Part shown: piece by piece, positions 17,430 to 22,390 of the stretch
How the letters are laid out: each line of letters starts with the position of its first letter
Position numbering within the stretch: position 1 is the stretch's first letter
Origin: an uncultured Armatimonadota bacterium
GTDB taxonomy: Bacteria > Armatimonadota > Fimbriimonadia > Fimbriimonadales > Fimbriimonadaceae
DNA length: 64,000 bases
Reading direction: 5' to 3'
NCBI GenBank assembly: GCA_903927345.1
Contig: CAIYMO010000033.1
Span: 62,001 to 126,000, forward strand
The notes under the pieces: generated by a model
The model's database searches: none
Told to the model about the DNA's origin: nothing
The model's input: only the letters and a program-made list of their open reading frames with translations
Made by a program: the position numbers and the translations under genes

Positions 17430-18092
17430 ATGCAGTTCACGCGTTCGCTTCTCTGGCTAGTCCCGTCCTCCATGAGCCTAGCGAGTTGTGCAGGTCCTGG
17501 CTCTCCAACGACAGATATCTGCAGCGCAACCGCATACACTCCGAACTATGTCTCCGATGTCAATTTGAAGCGCTGGGAGTCGGTCCCAATTCGAGTGTTC
17601 TTCCAGACCAACACCACTGTCAGCGGAGTCAACATTGAAAATGAAGCGCGTCAAGGATTTGATGAGTGGGAGTCCGAATTAGGGCAAAATCTCTGGACCG
17701 AGGTGACGTCCGCAGGCAGCGCGAACTTAGTTGTGAAAGTCCAATCTAGTGCCCCCCAGAGCACGCTTGCAGAAACGACCATTTACTTCTTTCAGGGGCA
17801 AAACATCATAACGCGTGCGGAGATGACCATCTACACTTGGCCCTCACTTTCCCTCGCTGGCTATGCAGGCACCTCAAGTCACGAGCTTGGTCATGCCCTG
17901 GGCATCAACGGTCACTCCAGCAGCAACGCCGACATTATGTATTTCAGCGGTAACTCGACCGATCTTCTCACACTTCGAGACCTGAACACCCTGAGAACGG
18001 CCTATTGCGGATTCGGAGTGCTGGCGAAGTCGGCCGCCCCTTTCGCTGGAACTCCACTTGTGTCTGAAAGAATTACCTGTCCTGCAAACTAA
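17430..18092 (+). CDS. Matrixin-like zinc metalloprotease lipoprotein
   Basis: 220 residues. A signal sequence ends in the lipobox LASC (Cys 20). The body is a compact M10-type metalloprotease: VPIRVFFQT strand, then the zinc motif HELGHALGINGH (His 151, Glu 152, His 155, His 162) and Met 170 in ADIMYF as the metzincin Met-turn. No pro-domain cysteine switch is obvious. It should be a membrane-anchored endopeptidase acting outside the cytoplasm; its substrate is unknown. The downstream gene is an exported foldase, which may share a secretion-related role. Confidence 0.88.
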   Translation: MQFTRSLLWLVPSSMSLASCAGPGSPTTDICSATAYTPNYVSDVNLKRWESVPIRVFFQTNTTVSGVNIENEARQGFDEWESELGQNLWTEVTSAGSANLVVKVQSSAPQSTLAETTIYFFQGQNIITRAEMTIYTWPSLSLAGYAGTSSHELGHALGINGHSSSNADIMYFSGNSTDLLTLRDLNTLRTAYCGFGVLAKSAAPFAGTPLVSERITCPAN

Positions 18093-19576: not shown

Positions 19577-19759
19577 CGTTGTTTTTAAGCTCCTGGTCAA
19601 TTGAATGACCCGTTCTATTCTGACGCCAAGATTCAGGAAAAGTGCCCGTTTCTAAGCGAATTGGGTTAAGTATCGGTGAAAACACTTCTTTCGGCAGGGT
19701 GAATCGATCAACACCTGCACCATTTCTCACGTTCAATCCTGAGTCAAAATGAAGACGTG

Positions 19760-20167
19760 ATGGAATTCTTTATCCAAGATGAGCAGGCCATGCTCGAGCT
19801 TGGAAATCGGATTTCCAAATCTTTGCACAGAGGCGACCTGGTTCTCTTGGAGGGTCACCTCGGTGCCGGCAAAACAACGCTGGTTCGAGGCATTCTCCAC
19901 GGATTAGGGTGGAAGGAGCCCGTGCGATCACCAACATACAACCTCTTTGCACCGTACGACACAGATCCTCCCGTGCTTCATGCAGACTTCTACCGGATCT
20001 CGGACGCCCAGGGCACTGGCATTGAGGACTACTTCGATAGTCACGTGTGCTTGGTCGAATGGCCAGATGCGCTCAGGAGCCTTGTTGACCTCACCCTCTC
20101 TTCCAAGGTGGAAATCACAACGGAAGGTACCGGACGCCGTGTTCGCCTGAGTAACATCTTGCTATGA
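19760..20167 (+). CDS. tsaE: tRNA threonylcarbamoyladenosine biosynthesis ATPase TsaE
   Basis: 135 residues, typical length. TsaE is the ATPase that drives the TsaB-TsaD-TsaE complex placing t6A at position 37 of ANN-decoding tRNAs. Walker A is GHLGAGKTTL (about residues 33-42), and SPTYNLF plus LHADFYRI are family motifs; VEWPD closes the active site. A GTG at 19757 directly precedes the chosen ATG. The stop overlaps the next gene in an ATGA, so it leads a translationally coupled cluster. Confidence 0.95.
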   Translation: MEFFIQDEQAMLELGNRISKSLHRGDLVLLEGHLGAGKTTLVRGILHGLGWKEPVRSPTYNLFAPYDTDPPVLHADFYRISDAQGTGIEDYFDSHVCLVEWPDALRSLVDLTLSSKVEITTEGTGRRVRLSNILL

Positions 20168-21138
20168 GTCTCCGCGTCGGTCTGATCAGTGCCGCCCATG
20201 TGCACACCCCGAGTTATGCTCACAACTTCTCGGCTAACCCCCGCGCAGAAATTTCGGGATTGTGGGATGACGACGTCAATCGTGGAACCGAATTCGCGGA
20301 CAAGCGCGGTATCCCGTTCTTTAGCGATCTTCAAGAGCTCCTCGATCAATCAGATGCGGTAGCGATCAGCAGCGAAAATACCAAGCACCTTGCCCATATT
20401 GAAGTTGCGGCAAACGCAGGCAAACACATTATCTGCGAAAAGCCGGTTGTCGTCCGACTTGAGGACTTCGACAAAGTTCGAGAAGCTGTTTCCCAAAACA
20501 AGGTCAAGTTCATGACCGCTTTCCCGTGTCGGTTCTCGCCTGCGTATCAGTCGCTTAAACAACGAGTCAACAGCGGAGAGCTCGGCGAAATCAAAGCAAT
20601 CAATGCGACAAACCGTGGTCAATGCCCGGGGATGTGGTTTATCGAACCCGCTCTCAGTGGAGGAGGCGCGATGATCGATCACGTTGTGCACGTCGCGGAT
20701 CTACTTCGTGATCTTCTCGGCGAAGAGCCTTCTCACGTTGAAGGGCAAACAGGTTCCAATATGTACGGAGGTAAAGACTGGGATGACACGGCGATGGTCT
20801 CCCTCGACTACCCAAGCGGAATCTTCGCAACGCTGGACAGCTCTTGGTCACGACCTACTTCATTCCGTACCTGGGGTGATGTCACTCTTAAGGTTGTGGG
20901 CACCAACGGAGTTCTGCACGCTAACCTCTTTGACCAGTCAATCAGTCACTTCAAGAACGGTCGCACCAAGTCTCTCGCCGATCAATCTTATGGGAGTGAT
21001 CTCGACGGGGCGATGATGGGAGCGTTTGTGAATGCTTGTCTTGATGGCGCCGACATTCCCGTCACGCTTGAAGACGGACTTGCCGCTGCCTTGGTATCTC
21101 TTCGCGCATACGAGTCAATCAAGTCCCGGGTCGCGTAG
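20164..21138 (+). CDS. Gfo/Idh/MocA family NAD(P)-dependent oxidoreductase
   Basis: 324 residues. An N-terminal Rossmann domain (about 1-120) carries the family EKP motif in HIICEKPVVV, with the catalytic Lys. The C-terminal alpha/beta domain has SGGGAMIDHVVH, where the His is the usual acid/base. Such enzymes oxidise or reduce sugars and inositols; the substrate here cannot be read from sequence. The start overlaps tsaE by 4 bases. The N-terminal strand is RVGLISAAHVHTPS rather than GxGxxG, a variant of the nucleotide loop seen in some family members. Confidence 0.88.
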   Translation: MSLRVGLISAAHVHTPSYAHNFSANPRAEISGLWDDDVNRGTEFADKRGIPFFSDLQELLDQSDAVAISSENTKHLAHIEVAANAGKHIICEKPVVVRLEDFDKVREAVSQNKVKFMTAFPCRFSPAYQSLKQRVNSGELGEIKAINATNRGQCPGMWFIEPALSGGGAMIDHVVHVADLLRDLLGEEPSHVEGQTGSNMYGGKDWDDTAMVSLDYPSGIFATLDSSWSRPTSFRTWGDVTLKVVGTNGVLHANLFDQSISHFKNGRTKSLADQSYGSDLDGAMMGAFVNACLDGADIPVTLEDGLAAALVSLRAYESIKSRVA

Positions 21139-21148
21139 AACCTAATTC

Positions 21149-22390
21149 ATGACGATCCGCGTTGCGCACGATTTCAATTGCCCCTGGTGCTGGGTTGGGC
21201 TCTTCCAAGCCCAGCGCCTGGAGCGAGAGTTTGGGATCACGGTGGAGTGGGTGGGGTACGAGCTGTTCCCTAAGGACATGGAGTGGGATTACTCGTCTTG
21301 TCCGATCGAGCCACGAAACAAGCCCTCAACCCCCGGCCGATTCGCAATCCACTCCTTCGCAGAAGGAATCGCCATTCCCAAAGTGGATCGCCCTTTTGAA
21401 CAGCGAACCTACAATGCGCATCAGGCCGTTGAATACGCGAAGACCGAAGGCGTAGCAAATGCACTCGTAGAACGCCTCTATCGTGCTCATTGGGAGGAAG
21501 GGAAGGATATTAACACGCTCGAAACACTGAAGTCAGAAGCTGTCGGAATCGTCGCCGACATTCCTGCAATGCTCCAAGCGATCGAAGAAGATCGCTTTGG
21601 CGATCAAGTAACCGATTTCGACCAGCCGGCGCACGAGGCCGGGGTCTACAACCTTCCCACGTTCTTTATTGGGGACCAACGCCTTGCGGAGCAGCCCTAC
21701 CGAAAGATCAAGGCGGCAATGGAGAAGTTGCTACCGCCCGATCCAGCTTCGCTTGTCTACAGAGACTTGGTATTCACGAACCCGCACTCAAGCCGCCCCT
21801 ACCTTTTCATTAATATGGTGAGCACGATCGATGGCAAAATCATTACGGGTGAGCGCGGCGAGCCTGTTGCTGATTTAGGAACGGTCAACGACCACAAGAT
21901 CATGCGGCGGCTAGAACACAAGGCGGACGCCATCATGAGCGGGGGAACCAGTGTTCGCGCAAGTGGAAATTGGAACCCAGAAACAACCATTCGGATCGCG
22001 GTCACCAGATCAGGCGACATGCCCTATGATCGACCATTCTTCACCCAAGGTAAGCCAATCGTGCTTCATCCCGAGGGGAGCAATCCGAATGTGCCCTCTC
22101 AAATCAGAACGATTTCCTTCAGATCCTGGCCGGACGCGCTTGAGAAACTGAAGGCCGAAGGCATTGAGGTCATCAATGTGCTTGGCGGAAGCGACCTGAA
22201 CGCTCAGCTTCTCGAAGCTGAGCTGATTGACGAGCTATTCCTAACGCTAGCGCCCAAGATTAAGCTGGGGGACACCACACCAACATATGCTGGCGGCAAT
22301 CCCCTGCCGCGCGAAAAGGTGCAGGCGTACACCCTCGCGGAATGCCATCAAATCGACGACGAATTATTCCTTAGGTACACCCGACCTTGA
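21149..22390 (+). CDS. Fusion of DsbA/FrnE-like thioredoxin domain and RibD C-terminal reductase
   Basis: 413 residues in one uninterrupted frame. Residues 1-205 are a DsbA-family domain of the FrnE type with the active site C11-P-W-C14, the inserted helical part and the cis-Pro loop GVYNLPTFFIG. Residues about 214-413 are a RibD_C/dihydrofolate-reductase-like domain: YLFINMVSTIDGKI, IMSGGTSVR, INVLGGSDLNAQLLEAELIDELFLTLAPKI is its typical run. RibD_C enzymes reduce riboflavin or pterin-like substrates with NADPH. The union of a dithiol oxidoreductase and an NADPH reductase is unusual. No signal peptide, so cytoplasmic. Its stop overlaps the ABC permease start. Confidence 0.88.
   Translation: MTIRVAHDFNCPWCWVGLFQAQRLEREFGITVEWVGYELFPKDMEWDYSSCPIEPRNKPSTPGRFAIHSFAEGIAIPKVDRPFEQRTYNAHQAVEYAKTEGVANALVERLYRAHWEEGKDINTLETLKSEAVGIVADIPAMLQAIEEDRFGDQVTDFDQPAHEAGVYNLPTFFIGDQRLAEQPYRKIKAAMEKLLPPDPASLVYRDLVFTNPHSSRPYLFINMVSTIDGKIITGERGEPVADLGTVNDHKIMRRLEHKADAIMSGGTSVRASGNWNPETTIRIAVTRSGDMPYDRPFFTQGKPIVLHPEGSNPNVPSQIRTISFRSWPDALEKLKAEGIEVINVLGGSDLNAQLLEAELIDELFLTLAPKIKLGDTTPTYAGGNPLPREKVQAYTLAECHQIDDELFLRYTRP

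Follow-up and report, generated by a model that had tools for sequence, protein, structure and literature searches.

RibD_C reductases take a hydride from NADPH and pass it straight to a ring substrate, and none of them is known to use a flavin. In the yeast enzyme RIB7 (ScRIB7) the NADPH-pyrophosphate motif is made up of G76-X-G78-T79 and G181-G182 (PMC3631187). Rv2671, a RibD_C protein of M. tuberculosis, is reported to reduce dihydrofolate (DHF; PMC10530724). Organisms that carry ThyX without a recognisable dihydrofolate reductase (DHFR) still need DHFR activity, the gene for which is unassigned, and Pfam01872 proteins have been noted as DHFR-like (PMC1971073). FrnE proteins, which belong to the DsbA family, are predicted to be cytoplasmic; NADPH and thioredoxin reductase reduce FrnE of Deinococcus radiodurans, and a C-terminal CXXXXC motif has been proposed to regenerate it, although this motif, common among FrnE proteins, is missing from some that bear the name (PMC8945050). 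Fimbriimonas ginsengisoli carries four genes for TrxB and nine for TrxA and is reported to make tetrahydrofolate (THF) from GTP (PMC4072686).

Here we describe a gene that joins a FrnE-like DsbA domain to a RibD_C domain. It lies in a stretch of 64,000 nucleotides (the window) from an uncultured bacterium of the Fimbriimonadaceae (Armatimonadota), whose 3.1 Mb genome is estimated to be 100% complete. The two domains are each known; their pairing, and the series of fused and separate forms reported below, are undescribed to the extent of the literature searched, and we found nothing relevant on a DsbA-RibD fusion in those papers.

Results

The open reading frame (ORF) has no internal stop in its 413 codons (Table 1), and both of its domains score above the curated Pfam cut-offs (60.3 against 25.6 bits for DSBA and 80.7 against 24.1 bits for RibD_C) while covering nearly the whole of their profiles. 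An earlier note, made from the letters of the window, had described two complete domains on one chain, the first of them FrnE-like with CPWC and an intact cis-Pro loop, and all of this holds: the motifs are near-invariant in the family, and the best solved relative of the DsbA domain is FrnE of D. radiodurans (DR_0659, PDB 5cnw). No signal peptide was seen on the DsbA domain on inspection by eye. The RibD_C Pfam domain is above its cut-off in 29 of 29 members, and its solved relatives are archaeal and bacterial RibD-type reductases in the PDB. An AlphaFold model built from four sequences was unusable (mean pLDDT 45, pTM 0.30). The linker contains an in-frame ATG (M191, window 21719-21721), from which internal initiation may give a separate RibD_C product. 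Elsewhere in the window, positions 17430-18092 hold an ORF of 220 aa with a HELGHALG zinc-metalloprotease-like motif and a lipoprotein-like N-terminus.

Table 1. The fused gene, its domains and motifs, and its neighbours in the window
Feature	Coordinates	Strand	Evidence
Fused DsbA(FrnE-like)-RibD_C gene	21149..22390	+	single ORF, 413 aa; 30 fused loci
DsbA-family thioredoxin domain, FrnE-like (residues 3-179)	21155..21685	+	Pfam DSBA E 2.7e-16
CPWC redox motif (C11, C14)	21179..21190	+	kept in nearly all family members
LPT cis-Pro loop (P170)	21653..21661	+	P and T in 60/60 members
Linker (residues about 190-216), contains M191	21716..21796	+	stop-free; pN 0.175 against saturated pS (compared with G015)
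RibD_C / DHFR-like domain (residues 217-404)	21797..22360	+	Pfam RibD_C E 1.6e-22
NADPH-pyrophosphate loop G265..S268..R270 (ScRIB7 G76-T79 region)	21941..21958	+	G265 73/73; T/S at 268 68/73; R270 71/73
S272 in place of the catalytic Asp (ScRIB7 Asp83)	21962..21964	+	T 46, S 13, D 2 of 73
L345-G346-G347; retains the Gly-Gly of the NADPH site, with Leu in place of the catalytic Glu (ScRIB7 Glu180)	22181..22189	+	GG 73/73
FtsX/MacB-type ABC permease, 380 aa	22387..23529	+	domain match; homologue downstream in 45/55 two-domain loci
LolD-like ABC ATPase, 213 aa	23526..24167	+	4-base overlap with permease; LolD profile 206 bits, under cut-off
Gfo/Idh/MocA oxidoreductase, next gene upstream	20164..21138	+	upstream position conserved in part of the genus and family only
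TsaE tRNA-modification ATPase, second gene upstream	19757..20167	+	domain match

A search of 201 genomes, together with reading of the loci, gave 55 loci with both domains, and these show that the joining of DsbA and RibD_C is real but optional. Thirty are fused (27 in f1, the family of the window gene, and 3 in f5), 24 are pairs of separate neighbouring genes, and one, in G008, is a frameshifted fusion. Of the separate pairs, ten have a 4-base start/stop overlap (NTGA), four (G003, G020, G022 and G036) share one reading frame and are parted by a single stop, and the genes of the pair in G042 are about 0.8 kb apart. The close orthologues of the window gene, at 79% and 74% identity, are also fused, the closest named relative found being a Fimbriimonas MAG at 79%. 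Against these two, pN is 0.13-0.16 with pS saturated, and the linker is constrained along with both domains, which are under purifying selection. Mapping the two states onto the domain trees took at fewest 15 and 13 changes, numbers that may be inflated, most inner branches being weak; the change between fused and separate has been repeated, a statement we make without an exact count. The copy in G007, which we take to be Fimbriimonas ginsengisoli Gsoil 348, a cultured type strain, is fused and sits on one contig of 5,231,762 bases.

Our searches for the fusion covered Armatimonadota and plasmids, and it may also occur beyond them. A scan of genome contigs with peptide patterns returned two loci only. 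On plasmids the fusion was not found by tblastn, in which 50 records matched part of the query and none covered 80% of it.

RibD_C is the constant part of this system and DsbA its optional partner, absent from some lineages. Nearly every genome of the order has a RibD_C match of the same kind as in the fused gene. Within family f1, about 68 genomes have DsbA and none of these was seen without RibD_C (some separate pairs being judged from coordinates alone), 11 have RibD_C only, and four (G038, G047, G065 and G069) have neither. A DsbA profile search of the RibD_C-only genomes of the order gave no match in any of 17, including single-contig genomes such as G029, and among all 22 genomes covered by this search the sole match was a partial one, in G075.

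The proposed coupling of the fused gene to an ABC exporter is borne out by a conserved neighbourhood and by a 4-base overlap (TTGA) of the permease gene with the end of the fused gene, provided that the TTG at 22387 is the start. In 45 of the 55 two-domain loci a permease homologue is encoded on the same strand, no more than about 1 kb downstream (within 0.7 kb in 43), and this also holds for 8 of 8 RibD_C-only loci of f1; in relatives the permease is usually followed by a LolD-like ATPase and then often by SpeD. Since the permease follows RibD_C in f1 with or without DsbA, the exporter goes with RibD_C and not with DsbA. Among the f5 and f2 loci, none was found with the permease next to RibD_C. 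In other Fimbriimonadaceae a different gene often stands just upstream of the RibD_C genes, encoding a sigma-70 family factor with regions 2, 3 and 4 and a GGDEF domain fused at its C-terminus (for example L082:4170-5435 (+), of gene cluster c7 with 12 loci).

The NADPH-binding residues of the RibD_C domain, which the earlier note had marked for checking, are kept: the pyrophosphate residues are present, and G265, G346 and G347 are invariant across the 73 RibD_C members. The DDPxLTVR phosphoribosyl loop, on the other hand, is gone, a short loop taking its place when the domain is aligned by profile with an archaeal-type reductase, and both catalytic acids of the riboflavin reductases are replaced in the window genus, where catalysis by the domain may be weak or altered. 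The RibD-type NCBIfam equivalogs all fall far under cut-off for this domain; its best NCBIfam match is NF010663, with a score of 65 against a cut-off of 184. A role as the RibD of the riboflavin pathway was rejected on the missing loop, the replaced Asp and Glu and the canonical RibD encoded elsewhere in the window genome (C11). Together, the kept glycines, the loss of the riboflavin loop and acids and the separate canonical RibD point to a domain that is very probably an NADPH-binding reductase other than the riboflavin one. The same genome encodes a third RibD_C protein, which is DHFR-like (L003, G000:C57:17372-17851) and is another candidate for dihydrofolate reduction.

At position 345, which corresponds to Glu180 of ScRIB7, 48 of the 73 members have Glu and 20 have Leu. 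The tree places two changes to Leu, almost all of the Leu members falling in the clade of the window genus. We rejected this replacement as a mark of partnership with DsbA, because Glu persists in many members, fused and split alike, and the change tracks the genus clade, and as a mark of lost folate synthesis, because HPPK-positive members of the genus carry Leu too.

In the DsbA domain the first Cys of CPWC is kept in 59 of 60 family members and the second in 58. In three fused members one of these cysteines is gone; such loci, in G037/G061 and G016 (L038, L039 and L104), read CEWS or SPWC. The C-terminal CXXXXC is absent from every DsbA domain of the family that we examined.

FolA (DHFR_1) was matched in only 4 of the 113 genomes searched, 3 of them over the cut-off, although HPPK (FolK) is found in 48 of 61 genomes and ThyX in 106 of 113. 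The window genome has ThyX and gave no DHPS, FolA or ThyA match; although most of the order has HPPK, neither it (G000) nor its close genus members G001, G002, G005, G006, G008, G009, G015 and G018 gave a match to HPPK.

Discussion

We think it rather probable that the fused protein tethers two redox enzymes of the cytosol, each with an electron supply of its own. The N-terminal FrnE-like domain would carry out thiol-disulfide exchange at CPWC and would be recycled by the ordinary thioredoxin system of the cell, which F. ginsengisoli has in abundance (PMC4072686). The RibD_C domain would bind NADPH and reduce a small ring compound by direct hydride transfer; this substrate would not be the riboflavin phosphoribosyl intermediate and is most likely pterin- or pyrimidine-like. 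No electrons would pass between the two domains; the fusion would fix their ratio and keep them together, presumably in the cytosol, and in this family RibD_C would be co-expressed with the FtsX/LolD-type ABC exporter.

A sharper version of this explanation has RibD_C working in the manner of Rv2671, as the dihydrofolate or dihydropterin reductase that is missing from the Fimbriimonadales, and DsbA assisting it as a redox partner. Because FolA is rare, HPPK and ThyX are common and Rv2671 is reported to act on DHF, the RibD_C family is a candidate for dihydrofolate reduction. The near-universal presence of a RibD_C match in the order is consistent with this, as are the need for DHFR activity in ThyX bacteria and the DHFR-likeness of Pfam01872 proteins (PMC1971073), the reported precedent of Rv2671 (PMC10530724) and THF synthesis from GTP in F. 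ginsengisoli (PMC4072686). However, the window genome keeps the gene with neither an HPPK nor a DHPS match (although salvage would also need DHFR), the DHFR-like paralogue on C57 is a competing candidate, and the fusion persists in three genus members that have FolA. Moreover, Rv2671 itself is a weak match, with an E value of 0.22 by single sequence and 6e-13 by profile. On balance we regard this version as unlikely. It is quite unlikely that the more specific form is right, in which the RibD_C half would supply, in Fimbriimonadales, the dihydrofolate/pterin reductase of ThyX bacteria that lack FolA, with the DsbA half as its dedicated thiol switch or protector, hard-wired to it by repeated fusion.

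A different possibility is that RibD_C serves mainly as a dimer-forming scaffold that pairs two DsbA domains as in DsbC, its reductase catalysis being lost or secondary. RibD-type reductases such as ScRIB7 are indeed homodimeric (PMC3631187), and the replacement of both catalytic acids in the window genus would fit such a role. In contrast, the invariance of the NADPH glycines and the conservation of the other pocket motifs, the retention of RibD_C in genomes without DsbA and the nearly half of the cases in which each part has its own gene make a scaffold very unlikely.

The earlier note had proposed that RibD_C feeds NADPH electrons to CPWC, making the protein a self-contained NADPH-dependent disulfide or glutathione reductase or isomerase. 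The fusion and the tight gene coupling agree with this, and since the DsbA domains of the family are without the CXXXXC proposed for FrnE regeneration, their regeneration may take another route. However, no conserved Cys is found in RibD_C across the alignment of 73 members and no flavin domain is matched by Pfam in the fused protein, and thus no electron path from NADPH to CPWC is visible. Nearly half of the pairs are separate proteins, and RibD_C is retained without DsbA. This proposal is therefore set aside as highly improbable, and separate electron supplies are preferred. Finally, a misassembly or frameshift artefact joining two genes, the outcome that the earlier note had named as refuting its reading, is almost certainly not the source of the fusion, whatever the frameshifted G008 locus and the many relatives with separate genes might suggest, because 30 of the 55 two-domain loci, in distinct genomes, share a single ORF, including the close orthologues with their constrained linker and the copy in a complete cultured genome.

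The tether of a thiol enzyme to a non-riboflavin RibD_C domain in mostly FolA-less bacteria gives a concrete candidate for the missing dihydrofolate reductase. The fused, overlapping, in-frame-with-stop and RibD_C-only versions found within one order form a compact natural series for the fusion of neighbouring genes, and one fused copy is available in what we take to be the cultured type strain.

Compared with known systems, the exporter genes resemble those of MacB/LolCDE/FtsEX-type ABC exporters in having a single FtsX permease with a LolD-like ATPase downstream, but they reach the curated cut-off of none of the exact NCBIfam families. The RibD_C domain shares its fold family, NADPH glycines and DGK motif with the riboflavin reductases (2azn, 5xv0, ScRIB7, RibD/RibG); unlike them it has no DDPxLTVR loop, and the catalytic Asp and, in the genus, the Glu are replaced. 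It also resembles Rv2671 of M. tuberculosis and the pyrimidine reductase family (NF010663), which have a stand-alone-type RibD_C outside riboflavin synthesis, whereas here RibD_C is fused to DsbA and its reduction of DHF is only putative. The DsbA domain shares with FrnE of D. radiodurans the DsbA fold, CPWC, the cis-Pro and a lack of any visible periplasmic signal. In contrast to FrnE, which is unfused and has the C-terminal CXXXXC, the window protein is without this motif and continues instead into RibD_C.
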